Source: Phycisphaerales bacterium
Lineage (GTDB): Bacteria; Planctomycetota; Phycisphaerae; Phycisphaerales; UBA1924
Direction of reading: 5' to 3'
DNA length: 64,000 nt
Assembly (NCBI GenBank): GCA_022843045.1
Contig: JALHOJ010000004.1
Coordinates: 1 to 64,000 of the forward strand
Below, piece by piece: positions 772 to 51,633 of the stretch. A program made the position numbers and the translations under genes. The notes below the pieces were generated by a model that was given only the letters and a program-made list of their open reading frames with translations, had not been told where the DNA came from and made no database searches. Position 1 is the stretch's first letter, and the number at the start of each line of letters is the position of its first letter.

Positions 772-809
772 CACAGGTCTCGCCGTCGCTCTCGACGGCG
801 AGACCTGTG
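772..809. repeat. Strong inverted repeat (17-bp arms, 4-nt loop): cacaggtctcgccgtcg-ctct-cgacggcgagacctgtg
   Basis: Arms 772-788 and 793-809 are perfectly complementary; lies 3' of the minus-strand CDS ending at 861. Confidence 0.85.
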
Positions 810-860
810 GCACGAGTGCGAGCCTGTTGTGCTACATGCCAACCGATTTCGATGTCATGT

Positions 861-1445: not shown

Positions 1446-1479
1446 GCTTCGGTCTCTCGGATTCGGCCTTTGGAGATCG

Positions 1480-1513
1480 CATCGAAGTCGTCGCAGAGCC
1501 GACGACTTCGATG
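1480..1513. repeat. REP-like hairpin copy 1 (catcgaagtcgtcg ... cgacgacttcgatg)
   Basis: 14-bp perfect arms 1480-1493/1500-1513; flank cgtgcc directly follows the TGA stop of the minus-strand CDS 1519-1989. Confidence 0.9.
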
Positions 1514-1518
1514 GCACG

Positions 1519-1989
1519 TCAATCGAACTTGATGGCGTACTTGACGAATTCGGTGCCGAGGGTCATGCCGAGTTTTTCGTAGAGGGCTCTTGCGGGGGTG
1601 TTGGTGTGTTGGGTTTCGAGGGTGAGTCTTGCCGCGTTGTCTTGGCGGGCGAAGGCGATGGCGTGGAGGGTCAAGGCTTTGGCGATGCCGAGGCGGCGGT
1701 GCTGCGGGGCGACGAAGAGGTCGTTTAGGTGCCAGGTTTTGGCGAGGCCGACGCTGGTGAAGATGGGGTAGAGCTGGGCGAAGCCGGCGGGGGTGGTGCC
1801 GGTTTTGGTGGCGACTTTGGCGAGGAAGACGACGGATTCGTTGCGGGCGAGGCGGTCTCTGAGGAAGAGTTCGCAGCGGACGCTGTCGCCGTGTTGTTTG
1901 CCGTAGAACTCGCGGTAGGCGGCGAAGAGGGGCGCGATGAGGGGGGCGTCGTCTGGGGTGGCGCGGGAGATGGAGAGGGGGGCGGTCAT
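1519..1989 (-). CDS. GNAT family N-acetyltransferase
   Basis: Motif LNDLFVAPQHRRLGIAKALTLHAIAFAR and C-terminal ALYEKLGM typical of GNAT. Confidence 0.85.
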   Translation of the reverse strand: MTAPLSISRATPDDAPLIAPLFAAYREFYGKQHGDSVRCELFLRDRLARNESVVFLAKVATKTGTTPAGFAQLYPIFTSVGLAKTWHLNDLFVAPQHRRLGIAKALTLHAIAFARQDNAARLTLETQHTNTPARALYEKLGMTLGTEFVKYAIKFD

Positions 1990-13178: not shown

Positions 13179-13790
13179 GTGAAACCGACGAGGTTTGAGC
13201 ATGTGTCGCTGGTCGAATCGACGCAGCATGGCTCGTGCTGTGTGCTTCGCTTCGCGACAGAGGGCGAGTTTCTTCCGGCTGAGGCGGCGGAACTGCTGCT
13301 GCAGCTTTGGGGACGGGTCGAGTCGCAATTAGCTGGCACGTGCGCGGGCGTGATGAACCTGCACTTTGCGATGGTGGACGCGGAGTTCTGCGGCGAGATG
13401 CTCGCCATCGCAATTGACTGCGGCGGGGAGCGGGTCGTGACGCACATAGAGCCATTTGGTCCGGGGAACCTGGACGCGAAGTGCAGTGACGCGTACTGCG
13501 CGGTGGACTTTGACACTGCACCGTTTCGCGGCGCGATCGAAGAGTTGGTTTCGATGCCCAATCTCGACGGCATCTGGTTGGGGGCGGCGAGATCGTTGAA
13601 GGTTGAGGCCAAGCTCGCGATCCGGTCCAGCCGGGTGTATGACCACGAGTTTGATGTCGAACGCCGGGTGACGGAGTTTCGCGAACTTGGACTGGATCTC
13701 TTGGCGTGGACGTCGCACGAGGGCGATGTGTTTGTGATGAGCCACGTCGCACATGAGCGTGAGTTGCTTGCGGCATGCGGGGCGGAGTGA
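13179..13790 (+). CDS. Hypothetical protein
   Basis: 203-aa ORF with acceptable amino-acid composition, closely downstream of pyrG. Confidence 0.6.
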   Translation: MKPTRFEHVSLVESTQHGSCCVLRFATEGEFLPAEAAELLLQLWGRVESQLAGTCAGVMNLHFAMVDAEFCGEMLAIAIDCGGERVVTHIEPFGPGNLDAKCSDAYCAVDFDTAPFRGAIEELVSMPNLDGIWLGAARSLKVEAKLAIRSSRVYDHEFDVERRVTEFRELGLDLLAWTSHEGDVFVMSHVAHERELLAACGAE

Positions 13791-13795
13791 TCGTG

Positions 13796-13827
13796 CCATC
13801 GAAGTCGGCTGAGGCCGACTTCGATGG
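13796..13827. repeat. REP-like hairpin copy 2 (ccatcgaagtcggc-tgag-gccgacttcgatgg)
   Basis: 14-bp perfect arms; begins 5 nt after TGA stop of CDS 13179-13790. Confidence 0.9.
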
Positions 13828-13877
13828 GAACCACAGTCGGTTGACGAAGGCCGAGGATGAGTCATCGGAGCCCTCCC

Positions 13878-33185: not shown

Positions 33186-34697
33186 TCAGCACTCGCTGAC
33201 GCTCACCGAGATGTTGACCGCGAGCCCGCCCTCGGCGGTTTCCTTGTACTTGCTCTTCATGTCCTTGGCGGTTTCCCACATGGTCTTGATGACGCCGTCG
33301 AGCGTGACTTTGGCCTGGCGCGGGTCGCTTTCGATCGCGATGTTGGCCGCGGTGATCGCCTTGATCGCGCCCATGGTGTTGCGTTCGATGCAGGGAATCT
33401 GCACGAGGCCCGCGATGGGGTCGCAGGTCATGCCCAGGTGGTGCTCCATCGCGATTTCGGCGGCTTGCAAGACTTGGCCGACGCTCGCGCCCATGATCTG
33501 GGCGAGTCCGCCCGCAGCCATCGCGCTGCTGACGCCGATTTCTGCCTGGCATCCGCCCATCGCGGCGGAGATGGTCGCGCCTTTCTTGAACAGGCTGCCG
33601 ATCTCGCCCGCCACCAGCATGAAATCAACGAGTTCCTCGTCGCTCTTGCCCAGGAAGCACGCGGCGTACATCATCACGGCGGGGATCACGCCCGCCGCGC
33701 CGTTGGTGGGCGCGGTGACGACGCGCCCGAACGCGGCATTCTCTTCGTTCACTGCGAGCGCGAACGTGCTGACCCACTTGAGCGTGTCCTGAAAGGTGTG
33801 CGTGATGGTGGATTGGCCGTCGCGACGGACGGCACGCATCCAGCGGGTGACGTTGTCGTCGGTGAGGACGGGGACGGTGGCGCCCAGCGTGTCGCCGTGG
33901 AGCGGGTTGGCGATGCCGAGGAGTTGGTGGTTGAGGCGTGCTGCGCGGCGGGTGACTTGGAGGACGCCTGGGAGCGTGCCGACGGTGTGACAGCCGCGGA
34001 AGATGCACTCGCGCATCACCTTCCAGATTTGGAGCAGGCCCAAGCGAACCTGCTCGCGATCGCGCCACATGAGTTCGTTGCGGAGCACGATCTGTGGGAT
34101 CGTCGCCTGCTGCTCCTCGCAGTATCGCTCGAGTTCGGCGGCCTTTTCGATGGGAAATGGCAGTTTGACGCGCTGGCGGAGGGGGCATTCTCGCTCGTGC
34201 TCCTGCACGACGAAACCGCCGCCGATGCTGTAGTAGGTTTCTTCGATGGTGCGGGGGTTGGCGTCGTCGCCATCTCGTCCGCCGGCCCCCCCGAGTTGGG
34301 CCTCGAAGGTCACGCCGTTGGGGTGAAAGGGCAGGACTTGGTCAAAGTGAAAGATGATGTCGGTGGCAGGGTCGAGGGTGATCTCTCGCGCGCCGCGGAG
34401 GCGGATGCGGCGGGACTTGCGGATCTCGGCTTCGATTTCGGGGAGCGCGCCAACGTCGCACGACACGGGGTCTTCGCCAGCCAGGCCCATCAGCACGGCG
34501 AAGTCGGTGCCGTGGCCTTTGCCGGTTTTGGCGAGGGAGCCAAAGAGATGGACGCGGACGCGGTCGATCTTGGCGAAGTGGTTGGCGGCGATGCAGCGGT
34601 CAAGAAACATCTGGGCGGCTCGCCAGGGGCCCATGGTGTGGGAAGAACTCGGGCCGACGCCGATTTTGAGGATGTCGAAGACGGAGATGGATTCCAT
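33186..34697 (-). CDS. sdaA: L-serine ammonia-lyase, iron-sulfur dependent, single chain
   Basis: MESISVFDILKIGVGPSSSHTMGPWRAA and GMTCDPIAGLVQIPCIERNTMGAIKA. Confidence 0.93.
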   Translation of the reverse strand: MESISVFDILKIGVGPSSSHTMGPWRAAQMFLDRCIAANHFAKIDRVRVHLFGSLAKTGKGHGTDFAVLMGLAGEDPVSCDVGALPEIEAEIRKSRRIRLRGAREITLDPATDIIFHFDQVLPFHPNGVTFEAQLGGAGGRDGDDANPRTIEETYYSIGGGFVVQEHERECPLRQRVKLPFPIEKAAELERYCEEQQATIPQIVLRNELMWRDREQVRLGLLQIWKVMRECIFRGCHTVGTLPGVLQVTRRAARLNHQLLGIANPLHGDTLGATVPVLTDDNVTRWMRAVRRDGQSTITHTFQDTLKWVSTFALAVNEENAAFGRVVTAPTNGAAGVIPAVMMYAACFLGKSDEELVDFMLVAGEIGSLFKKGATISAAMGGCQAEIGVSSAMAAGGLAQIMGASVGQVLQAAEIAMEHHLGMTCDPIAGLVQIPCIERNTMGAIKAITAANIAIESDPRQAKVTLDGVIKTMWETAKDMKSKYKETAEGGLAVNISVSVSEC

Positions 34698-34722
34698 GAA
34701 CGTGATGGTACCGAATGCGTGC

Positions 34723-34756
34723 CATCGAAGTCGCCCGGTTTCGGGCGACTTCGATG
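34723..34756. repeat. REP-like hairpin copy 3 (catcgaagtcgcccg-gttt-cgggcgacttcgatg)
   Basis: 15-bp perfect arms. Confidence 0.9.
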
Positions 34757-34782
34757 CCAAGTTCAGCATGGGTACATGGTCG

Positions 34783-34816
34783 CATCGAAGTCGTCGCTGA
34801 GGCGACGACTTCGATG
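34783..34816. repeat. REP-like hairpin copy 4 (catcgaagtcgtcgc-tgag-gcgacgacttcgatg)
   Basis: 15-bp perfect arms; 5 nt from TGA stop of nuoB on minus strand. Confidence 0.9.
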
Positions 34817-34821
34817 GCACG

Positions 34822-35388
34822 TCAGGAACCGACCCGAAGGCCCACCGGCTGCGGCTTTACCGCGTGCGTGGGCTCGAGCACCAGGCCCAGGGGCACGCGC
34901 TTGCCGCCGTTGGTGGGTGGGATGCCGTCCTGGTCGATGATGCGTTGGATGGCCATGACGCCTTCGATGAGCTGCTCGGGGCGAGGGGGGCAGCCGGGGA
35001 CGTACACGTCGACGGGGATGAACTGGTCGCAGCCTTGGACCACGGCGTACGTGTCAAACACACCGCCGGTGCTGGCGCAGGCGCCCATGCTGATGACCCA
35101 CTTTGGCTCGGGCATCTGCTCATAGATGCGTTGCAGGACGGGCATCGTCTTGATGCTGATGCGGCCGGCGACGATGAGCAGGTCGGCCTGGCGCGGGCTG
35201 AAGCGCATGACTTCGGCGCCGAAGCGGGCGAGGTCGTAGCGGGAGCAGGCGGTGGCCATCAGTTCGATGCCGCAGCAGGCGGTAGCGAAGGGCATGGGCC
35301 AGAGGCTGCTGCGACGCGCCCAGTTGATGACGTGGCGGAGCTGGGTGGTGAGAAAGCCGTCGACGGGGAGTGCTGCTTCGATGCCCAT
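34822..35388 (-). CDS. nuoB: NADH-quinone oxidoreductase subunit B
   Basis: [70 protein letters not shown]. Confidence 0.92.
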
Positions 35389-35708: not shown

Positions 35709-35739
35709 GGGGGATGATATGGGGGTGTGGAGAATGGGG

Positions 35740-35912
35740 TTCACTGCGGAGGACGCGGAGGGCGGGGAGAGGAAGAAGAAGAGGGGCCGCGGATTTGCGC
35801 GGATGAGCGCGGATTTGAATCAAGAGTTTTTGTTTTCATCCGCGTCAATCCGCGAAAATCCGTGGCCACTCTGCTTGGCTTGTTCCGTGATCTCTGTGTT
35901 CTCCGTGGTGAG
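35740..35912. repeat. Nested long palindromes (outer ttcactgcggaggacgcggag.../...ctctgtgttctccgtggtgag; inner 30-bp ggccgcggatttgcgcggatgagcgcggat / atccgcgtcaatccgcgaaaatccgtggcc)
   Basis: Inner arms 35785-35814 and 35838-35867 with a few mismatches; degenerate outer arms flank them. Confidence 0.8.
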
Positions 35913-35929
35913 TCTTCTTCTCGAACGGT

Positions 35930-41152: not shown

Positions 41153-44100
41153 TCAGATGCGGGGCGACAGGTTCTGGCGGAGCAGTTCGGTGCCGATCTG
41201 GCGACCCAGGAAGAAGTTGGTTGTCGTGATGGTGTCGGCGCTGCCCGAGAGCGGGCGGCTGAAGTCGGCGATGACGTAGGTGGGGTTGAAGGTGCGGTCG
41301 TCGCGGCCGTGGTCGACGGAGTTGGACGCAAAGGCGTCGAACTGGTTGCCGAAGTTGTTGACGCTGTCGAAGGTCGTGATGCGAGCGCCCATGATTTCGC
41401 CCGCGCGACGCGCGATCGCGGCGGTGAAGTTCTCGATGAGCAGGTCCACGTCCGCCGGGGCGGGTGTGCGGCCGATGAGCGAGAGGCTGGGGAAGAAGAC
41501 AACCGCTTCGTCGTCCAAGCGAGTGTTGAAGGGGTCCGACCGCTGCGAGACGCCATAGGGCTGGACGGGGTTGAAGATCTGGTTGAAGTTGCCTTGGGCG
41601 ATTGAGAGGAAGTTGAAGGCGGTGAAGGTGTCGAAGAGGGCGTTGATGGGGTCTTGCAGGCTGGACAGGTAGATGGTCGAGAAGTCCTCGAACTCGAAGT
41701 CCGCGGGGTTGGTCGAGAAGATGACGTCGACGCCGATGCTCTGGAAGAGGCTGTTGAGCTGCGTCACTGTGTTGTTCAGGACATAGGTCTGGAGAGGCTG
41801 ACCGTTGATGGCCGAGCCGACCAGGCCCAGGGTCTTGACATCCAGGGGCGTCAGGCGGGTGTCGCGGTTTCCGGTTTCGAGCCAGTTGACGGTACCGCCG
41901 TTGGTTTCGAGGAAGATGCGCTGGGTGCGGCGCTGGGTGTTGCCGCTGCCGTCGGTCACGACTTCGAGCTCGTAGTCGCTGTTGATGATGCCCTGCACGT
42001 AGGCGGCGAAGGTGCCCGCGCCGTTGCTGGTGCCTTGGGCCTGGGGCACGATGAACTCGATGAAGTAGTCGCCGTTGGCGTCAAAGCCGTAGGTCGTGGC
42101 GGCGCTCTGGCCGATCGTGCTGTTCGCGGTGCCGCCGTTGGCGCGGAAGTCGCTGGAAGAGAAGATCAGATTCGCGTCGTCCAAACCGAGCGAGCCGGTA
42201 GTCTCAAAGAAGGCGAACTGGACGTAGCCACGCAGGTCCTGCGTCGTGGGGATGCTCAGGCTGCCCAAGTCGCTGCCGGTTTCGGAAAGACGCAGGGTGA
42301 GCCGCATCTTCTGGCCCGGAGCGATGGGCTGGCGGTTGTTGAGGTGGAAGATGTCCACGTCGGCCTGGAACTTGTTGGGCACGCCGATGCTGCCGCGCGA
42401 GCCGACGGCCGACTCCACGGTCTGCACAAGACGGTTACCGACCCGGGTGGAGACTGCGCCCTCGCCGTCGACGCCGGTCACGATGTCGTCGGCAGTGTTC
42501 ACGACGCCGTCCAGGCCGCGGTCGAGCGTGAAGGTGTAGTTGTTGATGAGCAGCTTGGACTGGTCGTCGGGCGTGCCGAAGACGCCGTCGTTGCCTGCAA
42601 AGTCGATGGGCAGAGGCGCGGGCACCAGCGTGTTGCCGTCGCCGGCATCGGTGGTGTTGGTGAAGCCGCTATCCCCGTCATCGAAGATCTCGACGGTGAA
42701 GGAGTACGGGCCAACGCTGCCCGGCACAGTCTGCACCGGGTTGTTGACGGTGCCAGGGACCGCGACGTTGTCGGTCACGCCCACGGCGATGATGAACGTC
42801 CCCGAGACCCGCATGAGATATGCCTGCTGCGCGCCAGTCTCGAACGGAGCGTTCACGTCCGGCACGGGCAGCGAGATGGTGGTCGCGGTCGCGTTGAGCA
42901 GGTCGACAGGCGTGCCATCGGTATTCAGCACGCGGAAGGACGCACCCGAGGCACCGCCGCTCAGGGGCGAGATTCGCAGAATCTGGCCGGCCAGCACGGT
43001 GATCGTGTAGAGGTCCACGTCGCCGCCAAAGCGGAAGTTGGTGGTGTCGTTGTCGGGGTGATCGCCGATGAAGCCGTCGACCGTGATCGCACGGTTGGTG
43101 TCGGGCAGGTTGTCGGGGGCGTCGGCGTTGTCGAGGATGAAGTTGAGGTTGCTGGGGCCGTACAGGTCGTAGCGGCTGCCGCCAACGTTGACGACTTCCG
43201 CGGTGATCTTGTCGCCAGCGTCGCCAGCGACCACGCCGCCGACGAAGTCATCGCTCTGCTCGATCAGGCCATTGCCGTTGCCGTCGAACCCGGCGTCGAC
43301 AAGGCGGGCGCGAGCGACCGTGCTGTCGAGGCGGATGCGGTAGACGCCAGGACCCGGGCGACCGGGGACCACGGGCAGGTTGGCGCTCACCAAACTGCGC
43401 GAGAAGGTGATGATCAGGCCGTTGTTGGCTTCGTTGTAGCTGAGGGTGTAGTCGAGGCCTTCGACGAGGCGGATTTCGACTTCGCCGCCACCGCGAACTT
43501 CGGCCACGCTCAGGGCGCGAGGCAGGGAGCTGAAGTCCATCGGCTGGTTGAACTCCACCACAGCCGCGGGGATGAAGCTCTCGTTGCTGACACGGATGCT
43601 CTCGATCTGCGCGCTCTGGGGCGGCAGGGCGGGAGCCAGTGTCGCGAAGTTGCCGCGGGTGCCGTTAAAGGTCAGGCCCGCGAGCGTCACCGTGCCCAGC
43701 GTGCCGTTGCTGGCGATGCGATAGGACTCGGTCGAGCGGACCGAGCCGGTCTGGGTACCGTTGATGGTGACATTGCCGATTGCGCCGCGGCCGCCCGCGA
43801 TGCGATCGTCGTTGGTGCCGAAGAAGCGGTCCTGGCCGCGGATGAAGCCGGCGGTGATGTCCGACTCGCGGAAGTCGCCGCTGATGGTCACGTTGCCGAT
43901 CGAGCCGCTGCGGAGGCTGTCGGCGTCAACGCCCGTGCCGTCGAACTGGGCGTCGCGGCCCAGATCCACGCCTGCGCTGATGGCGGAATCGAACATCTGA
44001 CCGCCAATGGTGACGGTGCCGATATCGCGGCCCGCGCTGATCAGCGAGCGGCTGAGCTGCCCACCAAAGGTGACGGGGCCGAGCGTACGACCCGCACGCA

Positions 44101-47100
44101 CGGCGGCGCGATCGCCCTGACCGGTCACGGCCAGGCCCGTGAAGTTGCCGTCCGCGCTGATCGTGCCTCGGAGCGAACCGGAGATGGTCGCGGTGCCCAT
44201 GTTGAGGGCACGGAGCGTGGCGGTGTTGGGTCCGGAACCAAAGTCTCCCGTGACCGTCAGCGTGCCCACGTTGCGGGCGGTGATGAAGACGTTGCTGAGG
44301 TCTGTGTAGGCGATCCGGGTGACGTCGCCGCCGATGTCAAAGCGGGGGCGGAAGAACTCGTTGAAGGCGTTGCTGGCGCTGGCCGTGGTGCCGCCCGTGA
44401 CGTTGGCGACTCCGCCATCGACGAGGAAGGTGCTGTTGCCCTGCACGCGTCCGTTGACGGCGAGGGTGGCGAGGCTGGCGTTGTTGTTGGTCCAGAGGTG
44501 GAAGTTGTCGACAACGCCCGTGCTGCTGGTGATGGAGAACGCGCTGGTGGGGCCGCTGTTGCGGAGCGTGACGGTGAAGTCCGGAGCGCCCACGCCGCTG
44601 CTGAGGATGCCGCCCGGGACACCGAAGGTGAAGAAGGCTTCGCCCGGCCCGCTGAAGTTGAGGGTGTAGGTTGCGCCGCCGACCGTGACGGAGCGGGTGC
44701 CGCTGAACTGCGTGCCCGCGAAGCCAACGCCGGCGTCGAGGACGTAGTCGGCCAACTGGCTGGGCACGCGCTTGATCGCGTACCGGTTGTCGTTGAGGAT
44801 GGACTGGGGAATCACATCCGCGATCACCTGCGCGTTGGCGAGCGTGCCGCCGATGTTGAGCGTGCCGATCGTCGAGACGCCCAGTGCGAGCGCATCGTCC
44901 AGCGATTCGTCCGCAAGGGTGCCCGCAAGGTCTCCGTACACGCCGTCCGCGCCGGCTTCGGCGCCGGCGACGAAGGTGACGCCGAACGCGCCGCCCGGCG
45001 AGATGATCGTGCCGATCGTGCCGCTCTTGACCACGTCCTCGTTGGCGTCAAACCCGCCCGGACGATTGTCCGCGCCGAGGCTGACCAGCCCTGCGACGAA
45101 CAGCGTGTCGGCGAAGTTCACGCCCGTGCTGACGCGGACGATCGAATCGCCCGCGGCGAAGAAGGAGCCCTTGCTGCCAAAGTCGGTGTTGTTGGAGACA
45201 CGACCGCCGACGGTGATGTTGGTGATGTTGCGGACGGCGTGGAAGCCGGACTCAAAGACCGAGCCGCTGACGTTGATGCTCACAATGTCGCGGCCGGCGC
45301 GGATCAGAGCGCCGTCAAAGCCGCTGCGGGCGAACACGTCCTGCGGCAACTGGTTGCGACGCGCGTCCACAACGTTGAAGGGAGTCTTCGCGGCGTCGAT
45401 GCCGATGTTGCCGAAGGGCTGGCCGTTGCCGTTCACCACCAGGCTGGTGATGTCGTCGTCGGCGTAGACATTGCCCAGCAGGTCGCCACCCGTGATGGTG
45501 AGCGACGCGATGCTGCCTCGGTATGCGGCGATCAGGCGATCGGGCAGGAAGCTGCCGTTGGTGATGGCGATGCTGCCGATCCCGCCCGAGTAGCTCAGGA
45601 TGTCGCCGCCGAAGTCGCCATTGATGGTGACGGCGGTGATGCCGTTGTAGGCCACCAGCGAGCCGCGACCGGTCTGGTCGTTCTCCGGCTTGTTGGGCGC
45701 CCCGCCCAGGCGAACGCTCGCGAGCGTGCCGCCCGCACGGAGATCGCTGTAGAGCGTGCCGTTGGGCGCGGCGATGTTGTTGATGTTCAGTTGAGCGACG
45801 AACGCGTCGCCCGGACGGCTCGCAAGGCCGATGTGGCGACCCGCGGTGATCGTGCTGACGGTGCCGTTCACAAAGCCGCGGATCGCGACGTCGCGGCCCG
45901 CGGTGATCGTGTTCACGTTGGCGTTGCGTTCGGTCGTCGAGACTTCGGCGTCGAAGTCACCAGCCGTGACCGTCAGTGTGGAGATCGGGCCCGAGGACCG
46001 GACGCGACCCTGGAAGCCGTTCACGGCCGTGATCGTGCCGATTCGGCCGTCTGGCCCGCTGACCAGCACGTCGGTGTTCAGGGCGCGATCCGCGATCGTG
46101 ATGTTGGTGAGTTCGCCCGAGACGGCGATCGTCGACGAGGCGATGTTGCGACCGATGGTCAGGGCATCGAGCTGACCGGCGGAGATGCTGCTGCCTCGCA
46201 GGTCCTGCGTGGCGCTCATCGTGCGGATCTGGCCGTTGACGCTGAGCGCAGCACGGATGTAGTTGCGAGCGGTGAAGCCACCCGTGAAGTCGCCCGTGGC
46301 GCTGATGGTCACATCGGAGGCGTCTTCCTCGACGGTGATGCGGTCGATGTCTCGCTCCACACGAATGTCGGTGGGCACGAAGTCTCGGCCCGTACCCAGC
46401 AGCGTGCTGTTGGAGAATCCGAGCACGGTCATCGTGCCCAACGAGCCGCCAAGCTGCATGCGTGACGCGTCAAAGACGGTGCCATCCGCGTCGAACACAT
46501 CGAGATCACGCAAAGAGAAGCGATTGCGGGTGAAGACCGCGTCGGTGACATCGATCTGGCCCAGATCGCCGTAGAAGAAGCGATTCTCGCCATAGTTGAA
46601 GCTGGTCCAGAAGCTGTCCAGCGTGTCGCTGCCGACGTACGCGTCTACATACCGCCCGCCGGGCAGCAGCAAGTTGGTGATGCCGTCCTCGGTGAAGTCA
46701 AAGGTGAAGCCGTTGGGCAGAACGATGGGGCCCTGGTTGAAGCGAACCAGGTTGCCGGCGATGATCACGCCGCTCACCTGCGTGGGCTTGACGCTGGGAC
46801 CGCCCTGGCCAGTGCCCGGGACTGTGATAGAGGCAGGACCGGTCACCGTGCCGATGTCGTCTGCCGCGTACACGCCCGGGGCGCCGAGCGGGTTGCCATC
46901 AAGGCGGGTGGCGATGCCGTCACCGACGTCGACAAGCGCGACGCGGAACGCGTAGACCGTGCCCAGCAGGCCTTCGAAGCCGTCCAGCACGGTGATGCCG
47001 TCGCTGTTGATGCGGACGTCGCCCAATACGGCGTCGTCGCCCTGCAGGATGATGTTTCGCACCGCACCCTTCGCGGCGACGCGCGACAGGCTGCCGGTTC

Positions 47101-50100
47101 GGACGATCACGCCTTCGAGTCGCCCTTCGAGCGGGCTGCCCAGGTCGTCAAGGAATGCTGATGTGCCCGCCAGCGTCTCGTTCTGGGCGGGGCGATACAC
47201 GTTGCCGCCGTACACATTGGTATCGATCAACGGTCCGGTGTCTTGGCCGCCCAGAGACACGCCCACTGGCCCACCCAGCGTGCTGTCGGGTCCATCGGGA
47301 GCGATGCCCGGGAACGGAGCGATCGAGCCAGGGCCAAAGCTCACCAGTTCGGTGACGCCCAAGCTGCCGTCCACTTCGACCAAGTCCAGACCTTCCGCAT
47401 CGATGGTGACGATGTCGCCGTTGGGCGTGGTGTTGGTGATCGCCTGCACCAGGCCCGTCACTTCGATGCGATAAACGTCGATCTCGGCACTGCCGTCGAA
47501 CTCCACGCGCGAGGTAGCGTCGCCGGTCACGCGGATGCGACCGATCGTGACGCGCTGCGGACGCCCGCCGCCGCCCGGCGAGGTCGTGTTGCTGCCCGTG
47601 ATGCGGAGGGTGCGACCGGCCGTGAGATCGGCCTGGATCTGCGCCACCACCACGCCTTGGCCGCCGTCAACGGGGACGACGCGAATCACGTCCAGTGGGC
47701 TGGCGGGGCCGCCGCCCACGAGCGAGATCGTGAAGCGAGCGCCGCCGTCATCGATGAACTCACGGGGCTCGTCGGGAACCAGGAAGAAGACCGAGTCGTC
47801 GCCCACGATGTCGATCTCGGGCGTGTCAACGAAGCGGATATCACTGTTGCGGCCCGTGTTCAGACCGATGGGGCCGCCATAGATCCCGCTGCGCGGATCG
47901 CCGTCTTCGTAGGCGTCCTGGGCAATCAAGATCGCGCCGATGGTCGAGTTGTCACTCGTGGAAATGTCAAACGGCCGGTTGCCGATGGATGATCCAACCA
48001 CGTGGAAGCCCACGCGGATCATGCCGATGTCACCAGCGATGCCACGGATGTTGTCGCCAGTCTGGAGGCGGAAGCCCGTGCCCGTGCCGCTGCGGCGAGC
48101 CGCATTTTCCGGATCCTGGTCCATGCCAACGCCGCCACCGATATCGATGTTGCCGACACCGCCGCCGCGAACGCGCATGGTGAGGAAGTTGACGTCGCCT
48201 TCCGCCGCGCCGTCGGCGGCGGCGCCCTGGAACGCACGGGGACCGTTGCCGATGGTCGGGTTGATGCCCGTGGCGATCAGGCCGACGCGACCGCCGATGT
48301 CGAAGGAGATGATGCCGCCGTCCGCGCTGGGTTCAGGCGCGCCGATATCACCGCCCGCAATGAGAGCCCACAGATCGCCCGAGATGGCGATGCTGCCGCC
48401 GTGCAAGGACATGGCGTCGTCATCGTTGAGACCGGTGTTGAAAAGACCGGACGCGGCGGTATCGCCGCCCGCGGGGCTGCCGTAGCCCATGCCGACCTGG
48501 AACGCGCCCATCGAGCCCGAGAGCAGCGTGATGGCATTGGCAAGTCCGCCGTTGGAACTGGAGAAGCCTGCGCCGCCGCCCGTGCGATAGGAGCCGAAAG
48601 TGGTGGATGCCAGGCCGCTGACCAGGAAGCTGTAGCTCGACAGGCCCGCGCCGTCGTCGACACCCTGCGGGTCGGTGACGACGAGGTAATAGAGGCCCGG
48701 TCCTTCGCGAGGCTTGACCTTGACGCGAGAGGAAGTGAAGCGCTGACGGTTGTTGGGATCGCCCAGCAGAGTTTCGGGGTCGGGCGATTCGGGAGCGCCG
48801 ACCGTGCGGCCCTGCGCATCGACGACGCGCACGTACACGCCCAGACCGGCGCGATCGTCCACGCCTTGGACGATGATGTCCGTGGTGCCATCCCAGACGA
48901 AGGAGTAGACGTCGGAAACGTCCTCGGCGAGGATGTTGTTGCGACCCGACAGATCGCCACGCACGCGGACGGCGGTGCCTCCCGAGCCGATGAACTCAGC
49001 GCTGGAGAGCGTGTTGTTGCGCAACCAGCCGCCACCATACAGGACGGCCTGGCTGGCGGGGCGCGTCAAGGCTGCGCCGTCGACGGCGAGACCTTCCATC
49101 GCGCCGCCGGAATAAAGGTGATCTCGCACTGTGGTGAGAGAATCGACCTGCGTGCCCAGGGGCGCGACGTATTCGCGCTCGCTGTAATTGAACACGTCGC
49201 GGGCGGGGCGCGTGATAGGCGAACTCAGGTCGCCGATGACGGTGATGTCGGCCTGGCCGCGTCCACCGATGGCGATCTCGCCGACGGAGCGACCGACCAC
49301 GATCGCGCCTTCCGTGCGATAGATCGGATCGATCGTCACGGGACGGGAGAAGTCAAAGTCGGGCTCGATGGCGAACGCGCCCGCGTCGGTCTGGGTCGTC
49401 AGCGAGCCCAGATCGCCCGCGACCGTGACCGAGCCGACGAGGTAGCTGACGCTGAGGCGATTGAGCGCGCCGGTGAACTGGGAGTTGCCGTGAACGATGC
49501 CGTGGACGAGCACGGAGTTCATGGACTGTCCGTTGGGCACGAAGATGCCCTGATCGGCGCGGATGAAACTGCTGTCTGCGTCGGGCTCGACGATGAAGTC
49601 GTCGGCGGAGAAGATACCGCCGCCGCCCAAGTAGTTGTTCGGATCTCGAATCCACGGCGAGCCGATGACGACCGACCCAGCGAACTCCGGAAGGCCGGCG
49701 ATGCCGAAGTCCTCACCCTGATCATTCACGTTGAAGGCGTACCCAAAGCCGGCGCTTTCGAAATCATCTGAGAACCCGTTGGCCACGTTGGTGTTCAGGG
49801 TGAAGCCGAAGCCTTGCTCGAAGAAGTCATCGTTGGGCTGCGGATCTTCGCGAGCCTGAATGACACCACCCCAGACCGAAAGGCTCGAACGCCCGTCAAC
49901 GTTGTTGAGCTGGACGCGGCCGATACCGTCGTTGAAGTTGGGCCGACCGTCGTCGTTGGTGTCGACGAGCAGGATGTCCGCTCCCTGAGGACGGCCCAGC
50001 GCGATCGTGCGCTGCATGGCGTTGCCGTACAGATCGAACACGGACACAGAAGCGCCGACAGGCCCGGTGAGTACAACCACGGCACCGAAGATCTTGGGCT

Positions 50101-50980
50101 CAAGCAGCGACGCGAACAGCGAGTTACGGAAGTTGAACGTGACGTCGTCCACCTCAAACGCGCTGAAGCCCGGCAGCGAGAACGCTCCAATCTGCTCGAT
50201 TCGGACTGAGTCGAAGAAGTCGCCACCGGCTTCGAGCTGGTATGTTCCCACACCCAGCGCCGCGTTGCCGCCGGCCAAAATCGCGTTGCGCAATTGCTGG
50301 CCCGTGAAGGTTGCGAGCACCGCGTTGTCACGAATCAACGACACTCGGACGTTGTTGGTGTCAAGTCCGGAAGAGTCAGAGTTGTTGGCCGCCGTCTGGT
50401 TGGGACGGATCGTGAACCGCACCTGATCGGTCGTGCGGGGCAGGTTGACGTTCTGCTCCTGGCGAGGGCGGAACTCCAAGAACTCGCCGATCTGATTCAG
50501 ATCGGTGCGAAGATACCGGTCCTGAATGTTGACGTCGTTGCCAAAGTCGCTGGCCACGGCGATGTCCGCCGCGGGCTGGATGTTGTGCACGACCCGCACC
50601 GACTCGGGCAGGAACGTGAAGCCGCTGGCCACGGGCTGATAGAGCGACTGGTTGAAGTCGAGAATGGTCTGGGTGTTGTCAACTTCAGGGATCTCGTAGT
50701 CGTCGGCCAGCCAAGGCACGACATAGCCGAAGTACGCCCGCACGGTGCCCAGGCCCGTCGCAGGGTCCACGGAGTCTTGCGTCACCGCCAGCGTGAAGAG
50801 CAGTTCGCGATTCTCAAGTCGCTCCATCTGGGGGCCGCGGTCTGTGAGCCCGGCCCATCGCGCGAGGCGAGCGCCAAGACCAAGGCCGACCGATGCGGTT
50901 GAGCTCGTGTCAACGCGCCCGTCCTGCGCGCGCGACGACATACGGGAAGTGGAACGACCAAAGCGAGTGAACAGACCCAT
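41153..50980 (-). CDS. Giant (about 3276 aa) beta-repeat surface/adhesin-like protein with LEPR-XLL-type N-terminal motif
   Basis: N-terminal MERLENRELLF; many GxITVxGxV-type beta-helix repeats; pre-peptidase-like domain; start trimmed to MGLFTRFGRSTSRMSSR. Confidence 0.88.
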   Translation of the reverse strand: MGLFTRFGRSTSRMSSRAQDGRVDTSSTASVGLGLGARLARWAGLTDRGPQMERLENRELLFTLAVTQDSVDPATGLGTVRAYFGYVVPWLADDYEIPEVDNTQTILDFNQSLYQPVASGFTFLPESVRVVHNIQPAADIAVASDFGNDVNIQDRYLRTDLNQIGEFLEFRPRQEQNVNLPRTTDQVRFTIRPNQTAANNSDSSGLDTNNVRVSLIRDNAVLATFTGQQLRNAILAGGNAALGVGTYQLEAGGDFFDSVRIEQIGAFSLPGFSAFEVDDVTFNFRNSLFASLLEPKIFGAVVVLTGPVGASVSVFDLYGNAMQRTIALGRPQGADILLVDTNDDGRPNFNDGIGRVQLNNVDGRSSLSVWGGVIQAREDPQPNDDFFEQGFGFTLNTNVANGFSDDFESAGFGYAFNVNDQGEDFGIAGLPEFAGSVVIGSPWIRDPNNYLGGGGIFSADDFIVEPDADSSFIRADQGIFVPNGQSMNSVLVHGIVHGNSQFTGALNRLSVSYLVGSVTVAGDLGSLTTQTDAGAFAIEPDFDFSRPVTIDPIYRTEGAIVVGRSVGEIAIGGRGQADITVIGDLSSPITRPARDVFNYSEREYVAPLGTQVDSLTTVRDHLYSGGAMEGLAVDGAALTRPASQAVLYGGGWLRNNTLSSAEFIGSGGTAVRVRGDLSGRNNILAEDVSDVYSFVWDGTTDIIVQGVDDRAGLGVYVRVVDAQGRTVGAPESPDPETLLGDPNNRQRFTSSRVKVKPREGPGLYYLVVTDPQGVDDGAGLSSYSFLVSGLASTTFGSYRTGGGAGFSSSNGGLANAITLLSGSMGAFQVGMGYGSPAGGDTAASGLFNTGLNDDDAMSLHGGSIAISGDLWALIAGGDIGAPEPSADGGIISFDIGGRVGLIATGINPTIGNGPRAFQGAAADGAAEGDVNFLTMRVRGGGVGNIDIGGGVGMDQDPENAARRSGTGTGFRLQTGDNIRGIAGDIGMIRVGFHVVGSSIGNRPFDISTSDNSTIGAILIAQDAYEDGDPRSGIYGGPIGLNTGRNSDIRFVDTPEIDIVGDDSVFFLVPDEPREFIDDGGARFTISLVGGGPASPLDVIRVVPVDGGQGVVVAQIQADLTAGRTLRITGSNTTSPGGGGRPQRVTIGRIRVTGDATSRVEFDGSAEIDVYRIEVTGLVQAITNTTPNGDIVTIDAEGLDLVEVDGSLGVTELVSFGPGSIAPFPGIAPDGPDSTLGGPVGVSLGGQDTGPLIDTNVYGGNVYRPAQNETLAGTSAFLDDLGSPLEGRLEGVIVRTGSLSRVAAKGAVRNIILQGDDAVLGDVRINSDGITVLDGFEGLLGTVYAFRVALVDVGDGIATRLDGNPLGAPGVYAADDIGTVTGPASITVPGTGQGGPSVKPTQVSGVIIAGNLVRFNQGPIVLPNGFTFDFTEDGITNLLLPGGRYVDAYVGSDTLDSFWTSFNYGENRFFYGDLGQIDVTDAVFTRNRFSLRDLDVFDADGTVFDASRMQLGGSLGTMTVLGFSNSTLLGTGRDFVPTDIRVERDIDRITVEEDASDVTISATGDFTGGFTARNYIRAALSVNGQIRTMSATQDLRGSSISAGQLDALTIGRNIASSTIAVSGELTNITIADRALNTDVLVSGPDGRIGTITAVNGFQGRVRSSGPISTLTVTAGDFDAEVSTTERNANVNTITAGRDVAIRGFVNGTVSTITAGRHIGLASRPGDAFVAQLNINNIAAPNGTLYSDLRAGGTLASVRLGGAPNKPENDQTGRGSLVAYNGITAVTINGDFGGDILSYSGGIGSIAITNGSFLPDRLIAAYRGSIASLTITGGDLLGNVYADDDITSLVVNGNGQPFGNIGIDAAKTPFNVVDARRNQLPQDVFARSGFDGALIRAGRDIVSINVSGSVFESGFHAVRNITNITVGGRVSNNTDFGSKGSFFAAGDSIVRVSTGVNFADTLFVAGLVSLGADNRPGGFDANEDVVKSGTIGTIISPGGAFGVTFVAGAEAGADGVYGDLAGTLADESLDDALALGVSTIGTLNIGGTLANAQVIADVIPQSILNDNRYAIKRVPSQLADYVLDAGVGFAGTQFSGTRSVTVGGATYTLNFSGPGEAFFTFGVPGGILSSGVGAPDFTVTLRNSGPTSAFSITSSTGVVDNFHLWTNNNASLATLAVNGRVQGNSTFLVDGGVANVTGGTTASASNAFNEFFRPRFDIGGDVTRIAYTDLSNVFITARNVGTLTVTGDFGSGPNTATLRALNMGTATISGSLRGTISADGNFTGLAVTGQGDRAAVRAGRTLGPVTFGGQLSRSLISAGRDIGTVTIGGQMFDSAISAGVDLGRDAQFDGTGVDADSLRSGSIGNVTISGDFRESDITAGFIRGQDRFFGTNDDRIAGGRGAIGNVTINGTQTGSVRSTESYRIASNGTLGTVTLAGLTFNGTRGNFATLAPALPPQSAQIESIRVSNESFIPAAVVEFNQPMDFSSLPRALSVAEVRGGGEVEIRLVEGLDYTLSYNEANNGLIITFSRSLVSANLPVVPGRPGPGVYRIRLDSTVARARLVDAGFDGNGNGLIEQSDDFVGGVVAGDAGDKITAEVVNVGGSRYDLYGPSNLNFILDNADAPDNLPDTNRAITVDGFIGDHPDNDTTNFRFGGDVDLYTITVLAGQILRISPLSGGASGASFRVLNTDGTPVDLLNATATTISLPVPDVNAPFETGAQQAYLMRVSGTFIIAVGVTDNVAVPGTVNNPVQTVPGSVGPYSFTVEIFDDGDSGFTNTTDAGDGNTLVPAPLPIDFAGNDGVFGTPDDQSKLLINNYTFTLDRGLDGVVNTADDIVTGVDGEGAVSTRVGNRLVQTVESAVGSRGSIGVPNKFQADVDIFHLNNRQPIAPGQKMRLTLRLSETGSDLGSLSIPTTQDLRGYVQFAFFETTGSLGLDDANLIFSSSDFRANGGTANSTIGQSAATTYGFDANGDYFIEFIVPQAQGTSNGAGTFAAYVQGIINSDYELEVVTDGSGNTQRRTQRIFLETNGGTVNWLETGNRDTRLTPLDVKTLGLVGSAINGQPLQTYVLNNTVTQLNSLFQSIGVDVIFSTNPADFEFEDFSTIYLSSLQDPINALFDTFTAFNFLSIAQGNFNQIFNPVQPYGVSQRSDPFNTRLDDEAVVFFPSLSLIGRTPAPADVDLLIENFTAAIARRAGEIMGARITTFDSVNNFGNQFDAFASNSVDHGRDDRTFNPTYVIADFSRPLSGSADTITTTNFFLGRQIGTELLRQNLSPRI

Positions 50981-51633
50981 ACATACTCCTGTCCGTTCCG
51001 CGCGGAGTTCGCGCGCGAGTGCTGAAAGTAGGTGGGCTTCCGCCCGCCGTCCGGCAGAAATCCCAGGTCGCCTGTTCAAGGCTCCCTGAGGACAACCACC
51101 ATCCCGCCCCCGCCCCGTGACCGACCCCGTCTGCTCCAAGCCCCTGGGCGGTCGCGCCGAGTGTCGACGCCACCACCATCAATCAACGCAACCACTGTCC
51201 GACTCATCCATCAACCATCGCCGCGTGTTGTGCTTCGGGAGCGCCGCTCTCGGCGCTGCGCGTGGCTCGTGTGGACGGCGCTCTCGCGCCAGTCCCCGCC
51301 CGCATCGGGCCGCGGCTTGCGCCGCTACCCATCGCGCCGCTCTCGCGACGCTGCAACATCAGCATACCCGACCAGACCTCACTTCACAAGCCTTCCCGAG
51401 GCCCTTCTTGCGAAAAGGCCCAAGAAAACAATGGATGCACGGGCGAGGATGCGATGGCGAACGAGTTCTATCCGCAATCCAGCCGGGATGGTTCCATACC
51501 AAACATTATACTAACTGCTCTTTCAGATCAGTTATGAGACGATTCCCAACACGACCGATGCCATTACGCGCACTTCTTGCCACAGATTACCCAAAGCCCC
51601 AACCAATGTCTGTCACAGACCGACTTCCTCTCT

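Follow-up and report, generated by a model that had tools for sequence, protein, structure and literature searches.

What are the hairpins that recur beside unrelated genes on this planctomycete contig: mobile palindromes, or elements that act in the messages of their neighbors? We addressed this question in a window of 64,000 nt on contig C4 of a draft Phycisphaerales assembly (4.08 Mb, 147 contigs, 91% complete). An earlier note on this stretch had described four hairpins with a shared outer stem and inner stems that differ with pairing kept, three of them directly behind TGA stop codons and two arranged as an inverted pair. It proposed either a REP/BIME-like mobile palindrome with a preference for stop codons or a conserved 3′-UTR mRNA element. 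We conclude, with a probability of about 0.92, that the hairpins are REPs, standing singly or combined as REPINs, of a Phycisphaerales RAYT/REPIN system whose elements are headed (C)GTGC rather than GTAG or GTGG.

Within the window, the pattern CATCGAAGTCG-N-CGACTTCGATG matched four times, at 1480-1513, 13797-13826, 34723-34756 and 34783-34816, against an expectation of zero from 100 shuffles of the window. All four hairpins have perfect stems of 14-15 bp (the 14-bp stem of the second spans 13796-13827), and the inner stems vary with pairing kept in every copy, as had been described. The last two copies do form an inverted pair with outward heads (Table 1), which folds as single-stranded DNA at −45.3 kcal/mol (z −10.5). 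The TGA codons in front of three copies were likewise seen, in the form TGA-C-GTGCC at the stops of the GNAT and nuoB genes and TGA-TC-GTGCC at the hypothetical gene ending at 13790, for which a Pfam search returned no match. Rfam detected only tRNA in the window and no family at the hairpins. A possible fifth GTGC-headed hairpin has an unrelated stem and perhaps represents a second REP family; one of its halves is repeated at C6:85341.

Table 1. Hairpins and neighboring genes in the window (bits refer to the covariance model of the family).
Feature	Position	Strand	Details
REP singlet 1	1476..1518	-	head GTGC 1517-1514, stem 1513-1480, loop ~6 nt; 72.5 bits (model R1); 1 nt past GNAT TGA
REP singlet 2	13792..13830	+	head GTGC 13793-13796, stem from 13797, inner stem short; 48.6 bits; 2 nt past TGA of hypothetical gene
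REPIN	34718..34821	.	two inverted REPs, outward heads, ~104 bp; between nuoB stop and sdaA start
Left REP of REPIN	34718..34760	+	60.8 bits
Right REP of REPIN	34779..34821	-	65.1 bits; 1 nt past nuoB TGA
GNAT acetyltransferase gene	1519..1989	-	upstream of REP singlet 1
Hypothetical gene	13179..13790	+	upstream of REP singlet 2; start uncertain, gene model favors 13353
nuoB	34822..35388	-	PF01058
sdaA (serine dehydratase)	33186..34697	-	other neighbor of the REPIN
Possible fifth GTGC-headed hairpin	772..813	-	unrelated 17-bp stem CACAGGTCTCGCCGTCG

The family is dispersed over the whole genome, in line with the mobile-palindrome proposal. The strict pattern identified ten hairpins, and relaxed half-site searches together with a covariance model brought the number to ~31-34 copies, located mostly in non-coding DNA with a few within predicted genes. 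Sixteen copies are organized as eight inverted pairs of 99-108 bp with heads outward, among them the REPIN between nuoB and sdaA. The copies have a polarity, running from an unpaired 5′ (C)GTGC head through CATCGAAGTC... and a variable inner stem to a tail, often CGAACC or CGATCC, also CTTC and similar sequences. The head reads GTGC in 28 of 29 aligned copies and TTGC in the remaining one, all retrieved by searches that include the head; in a motif-free collection of hairpins from 764 kb of the same genome, GTGC was the commonest 5′ tetranucleotide. Among 19 copies of equal length, changes on both sides occurred at five pairs, four within the inner stem; paired cells in this alignment amounted to 94.4%, compared to 87.0% after shuffling (0/500) and 24-48% with slid controls. 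The inner-stem covariation was thus borne out, every measure exceeding shuffles and slid controls.

These features are those of a REP, defined as a short palindromic hairpin of 20-65 nt dispersed in many extragenic copies, with an unpaired tetranucleotide 5′ of the stem on one side, here GTGC and not the canonical GTAG or GTGG. The eight pairs of 99-108 bp likewise agree with the definition of a REPIN as inverted REPs with a short spacer (~70-110 bp). At ~31-34, the copy number is low for REPs (usually >100). Named genomes carrying the same GTGC-headed hairpin all belonged to the Phycisphaerales in the phylum Planctomycetota; in one of the searched sequences, ACE_PLA8, three 109-bp units lie in tandem. 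Hits in Bosea, Cupriavidus, Bacteroidales, Chloroflexi and other groups had no GTGC head and seem to be unrelated or due to chance, and no match to the hairpin was detected in the viral contigs searched. Separately, we observed composite elements of ~350 bp that consist of a family hairpin, then GCACGGGC..GCCCGTG, then GGGCCTTCTAGGCCC with a common tail. They occur at C28:42054, C33:1184 and C113:7224 and at the ends of C125 and C127 (L169, L172, L338, L170 and L171), both of these contigs terminating within or just past the hairpin.

If the hairpins belong to a RAYT/REPIN system, a cognate RAYT is expected. The window contains no RAYT-type transposase, as the earlier note had stated: it lies on C4, and PF01797 matches in this genome are confined to C35 and C53. 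A search of 163 genomes of the same taxonomic family identified true RAYTs (NF047646) in 108. The genome under study yielded no intact NF047646 RAYT at E ≤ 1e-6, in an assembly that is 91% complete, is divided into 147 contigs and includes two (C125 and C127) that end at repeats of this family. It does contain a C-terminal RAYT fragment on C113, with its stop ~10 nt before the REPIN at C113:8549-8647; the fragment reads AIHHNPVTRGL..., its catalytic-tyrosine position is changed and its best matches are mainly F-type RAYTs, the type found in a genome of a related genus (G215). In that relative, CGTGC-CATCGAAGTC hairpins with the same GGCTyTGC loop region as the family studied here border an intact RAYT (locus L247) at either end, and at one end they form a pair. 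The relative provides a RAYT flanked by the same, inverted REPs, and the genome under study a fragment beside a pair. The L247 protein has HVH and YIHRNP motifs, and its nearest solved structure is E. coli TnpAREP (PDB 4er8, E = 1.8e-10).

The association extends across the taxonomic family. GTGC-headed hairpins were located ≤400 bp from 37 of 52 RAYT loci and on both sides at 24, counts that are slightly biased by the inclusion of L105 and L106, which had been spotted through their flanks. Flanking GTGC heads at the 52 loci pointed outward in 62 cases versus 26, and GTGC headed 89 of 338 hairpins near RAYT loci versus 14 of 230 far from them (Fisher p = 1e-10). The majority head was GTGC at 36 loci, GTGG at four and GTAG at none, and a simple finder detected no GTGC, GTGG or GTAG hairpin at 13 of 53 loci. 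In addition, RAYT-like domains within open frames of ~1,200-1,500 codons recur across many Phycisphaerales genomes, perhaps as a fusion protein.

Comparison with orthologous 3′ ends distinguished insertion from conservation. No hairpin follows the nuoB stop in three same-genus genomes or accompanies the GNAT orthologues of two, and we therefore regard the copies as lineage-specific insertions; these sites show the lack of the element rather than a clean before/after junction, and no direct movement was observed. The genes nuoB and sdaA lie apart in both same-genus genomes in which both were located, on separate contigs in G083 and G151. In the window, where the two genes are neighbors (33186-35388), the REPIN marks their junction, which those genomes do not share. 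Polarity, a covarying stem, dispersal, uniform outward-headed inverted pairs of ~104 bp, orthologous absence and the RAYT association, in the flanks of the intact gene of the relative as well as in the decayed RAYT beside a pair, form the basis of the RAYT/REPIN reading and uphold the mobile palindrome of the earlier note.

The same comparison speaks against its second proposal, a conserved cis-acting 3′-UTR RNA element, such as an mRNA stabilizer, terminator or attenuator, that is selected after stop codons. The hairpin is also strong and covarying as RNA, and many singlets lie in sense downstream of stops with an excess at ≤25 nt. Furthermore, E. coli REPs ≤15 nt from a stop codon are reported to stall ribosomes (Liang et al. 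2015, as cited in PMC12306157). Against these points, the hairpin is missing after the orthologous nuoB and GNAT stops, the host genes are unrelated, some copies sit inside predicted genes and GTGC-headed hairpins flank RAYTs. In addition, the CGA(A/T)CC-like tails lack the T run of an intrinsic terminator, and no Rfam family applies. We consider an RNA element improbable as the primary explanation.

An insertion mechanism targeted to TGA stops, as an added property of the mobile element, was suggested by the three window copies that start 1-2 nt after TGA. Over all copies, these three compare to 0.08 expected at ≤2 nt, an excess due entirely to the copies from which the idea arose. No copy beyond the window starts ≤2 nt after any stop codon; copies elsewhere follow TAA or TAG or sit 10 to several hundred nt from a stop, and those near stops, at distances of 10-21 nt, come after both TAA and TGA. 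A fourth TGA-C-GTGC, at C3:9310, is not the stop of any called gene, and TGA already accounts for 56% of the stops of called genes (264/473). TGA targeting as a rule thus failed when stop adjacency was tabulated beyond the window, and we judge it very unlikely. Eight copies lie ≤25 nt downstream of a same-strand stop versus ~1 expected, and five versus 0.83 when only copies outside the window are counted (Poisson p = 0.002); genes were called with a custom codon-usage script, so that single stop distances carry some error. We attribute the TGA pattern to small numbers, superimposed on a genuine tendency of the copies to lie immediately downstream of genes.

There is similarly little chance that the hairpins are terminal structures or relics of IS200/IS605-type insertion sequences mobilized, without a RAYT, by the two IS200-type Y1 genes of the genome (C35 and C53). 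Both have open frames, but neither is flanked by the family motif, C35 having a GTAG-CCACGGGT... hairpin alongside instead, and in G215 it is a RAYT that has the exact motif in its flanks. These genes were rejected as the source, and two further candidates were set aside: the Y1 gene L092/L136 of a same-genus genome, which has a variant GTGCCCTCGAAGTC hairpin on both sides and another palindrome as its nearest flanks, and the ACE_PLA8 Y1 gene L151, where an exact hairpin lies ~340 bp off, on one side only and inside a large duplication. Around the IS200-type Y1 genes L136, L138 and L140 of same-family genomes, we observed inverted TAG-headed palindromes, for example TAG-CGTGGGGTCGCCGCGCAGCGGCACCCCACG.

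For the RAYT/REPIN system, biochemical work on TnpAREP proteins, that of E. coli among them, suggests how copies would arise. The hairpin in single-stranded DNA would be bound by the RAYT, the head would guide strand cleavage beside it, and the REPIN would then be transferred, by copying or by moving, to a new site, in most cases intergenic. As the only cognate RAYT found in the genome is a fragment, mobility of its copies may have been lost, unless unassembled sequence contains an intact RAYT. The hairpin in the mRNA begins 5-6 nt past the stop of nuoB, the GNAT gene and the hypothetical gene and could plausibly have a side effect there on translation or on transcript ends; given the ribosome stalling reported for stop-proximal REPs of E. 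coli, translation of these three genes could be lowered.

Among known systems, the REPIN/RAYT elements (Bertels and Rainey 2011, PMC3116915; Nunvar et al. 2010, PMC2817692) share with the present family inverted REP doublets of ~100 bp that form hairpins, singlets, inverted REPs flanking RAYT genes and stem variation with pairing kept; the differences are the GTGC head in place of GTAG or GTGG, the ~31-34 copies and an own cognate RAYT that is a fragment. The GTAG- and CGTC-tagged palindromes (PMC3733652) also have an unpaired tetranucleotide at one end, occur as singlets and opposite-orientation dimers and often abut ORFs, to which their GTAG termini can supply TAG stops. The tag here is GTGC, a term absent from that paper, which places the family outside the GTAG- and CGTC-tagged super-families. 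The class 3 TnpAY1 of Planctomycetes and Acidobacteria (PMC6006769) agree in phylum, in hairpins with an unusual foot that flank a Y1 gene and in high-copy hairpins, but their foot is CnGA and their Y motif Y----Q, as opposed to the GTGC foot and the YIHxNP motif of the RAYTs described here. E. coli TnpAREP is the closest solved relative by sequence, its HxH and YIxxNP motifs aligning; its guide-contact stretch reads WQPRFWEHAIR, that of the present RAYTs W[LQ]xGGG[FY]DRN. Heads described in the papers searched are GTAG, GTGG, CGTC and CnGA (PMC3116915, PMC2817692, PMC3733652, PMC6006769, PMC8266576). GTGC at the start of a word was found in none of PMC3733652, PMC6006769, PMC8266576, PMC12306157 and PMC2817692, and it may be mentioned elsewhere. 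The GTGC head is a new sequence variant, and REPINs, RAYTs and tagged palindromes are already well described.

The head variant bears on guide specificity. The base before GTGC is G at all 19 Y-type RAYT loci with such hairpins and mostly C at F-type loci (15 of 22 locus-base combinations). This link is a correlation among RAYTs that are related by descent. The F/Y position in GGG[F/Y]DR aligns with W99 of E. coli TnpAREP, beside E100 and H101, which belong to the residue set discussed as GTAG-guide contacts (PMC6006769). Since an altered head leads to an altered cleaved dinucleotide in vitro (PMC8266576), a different cut site is predicted for GTGC; by the published pairing model, the dinucleotide would be GC or GA. 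Upstream of 30 copies, neither GA nor GC was clearly enriched beside the heads (GA 3/30). From these sequence comparisons, we tentatively suggest, as a possibility we rate below even odds, that the RAYTs of Phycisphaerales constitute a group guided by GTGC, whose cleavage dinucleotide consequently differs from the CT cut in GTAG systems and in which the F/Y switch tracks the pre-guide base.

With these hairpins, RAYT/REPIN systems that use another guide tetranucleotide are seen to extend across a family of planctomycetes. The many naturally varying RAYT-hairpin pairs offer a ready test set for the evolution of guide and cleavage-site specificity in TnpAREP, for which in vitro studies have so far covered a handful of proteobacterial systems, and the window copies 5-6 nt past stops are natural test cases for whether stop-proximal REPs reduce translation.

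The window has further repeats. At 35738-35915, a repeat of ~170 bp with an inner inverted repeat (CGCGGATTTGCGCGGATGA / TCATCCGCGTCAATCCGCG) has ~45 further matches in the genome, in both orientations. The repeat at 1-547 recurs with 84-100% identity at ~16 other positions of the genome, often at the end of a contig; two ORFs tested in it gave no Pfam match. The segment 8760-8861, at the start of a predicted gene, has approximately nine matches in the same-genus genome G083 (80-93% identity). Finally, the minus strand of 41153-51139 contains an open frame of 3,328 codons.
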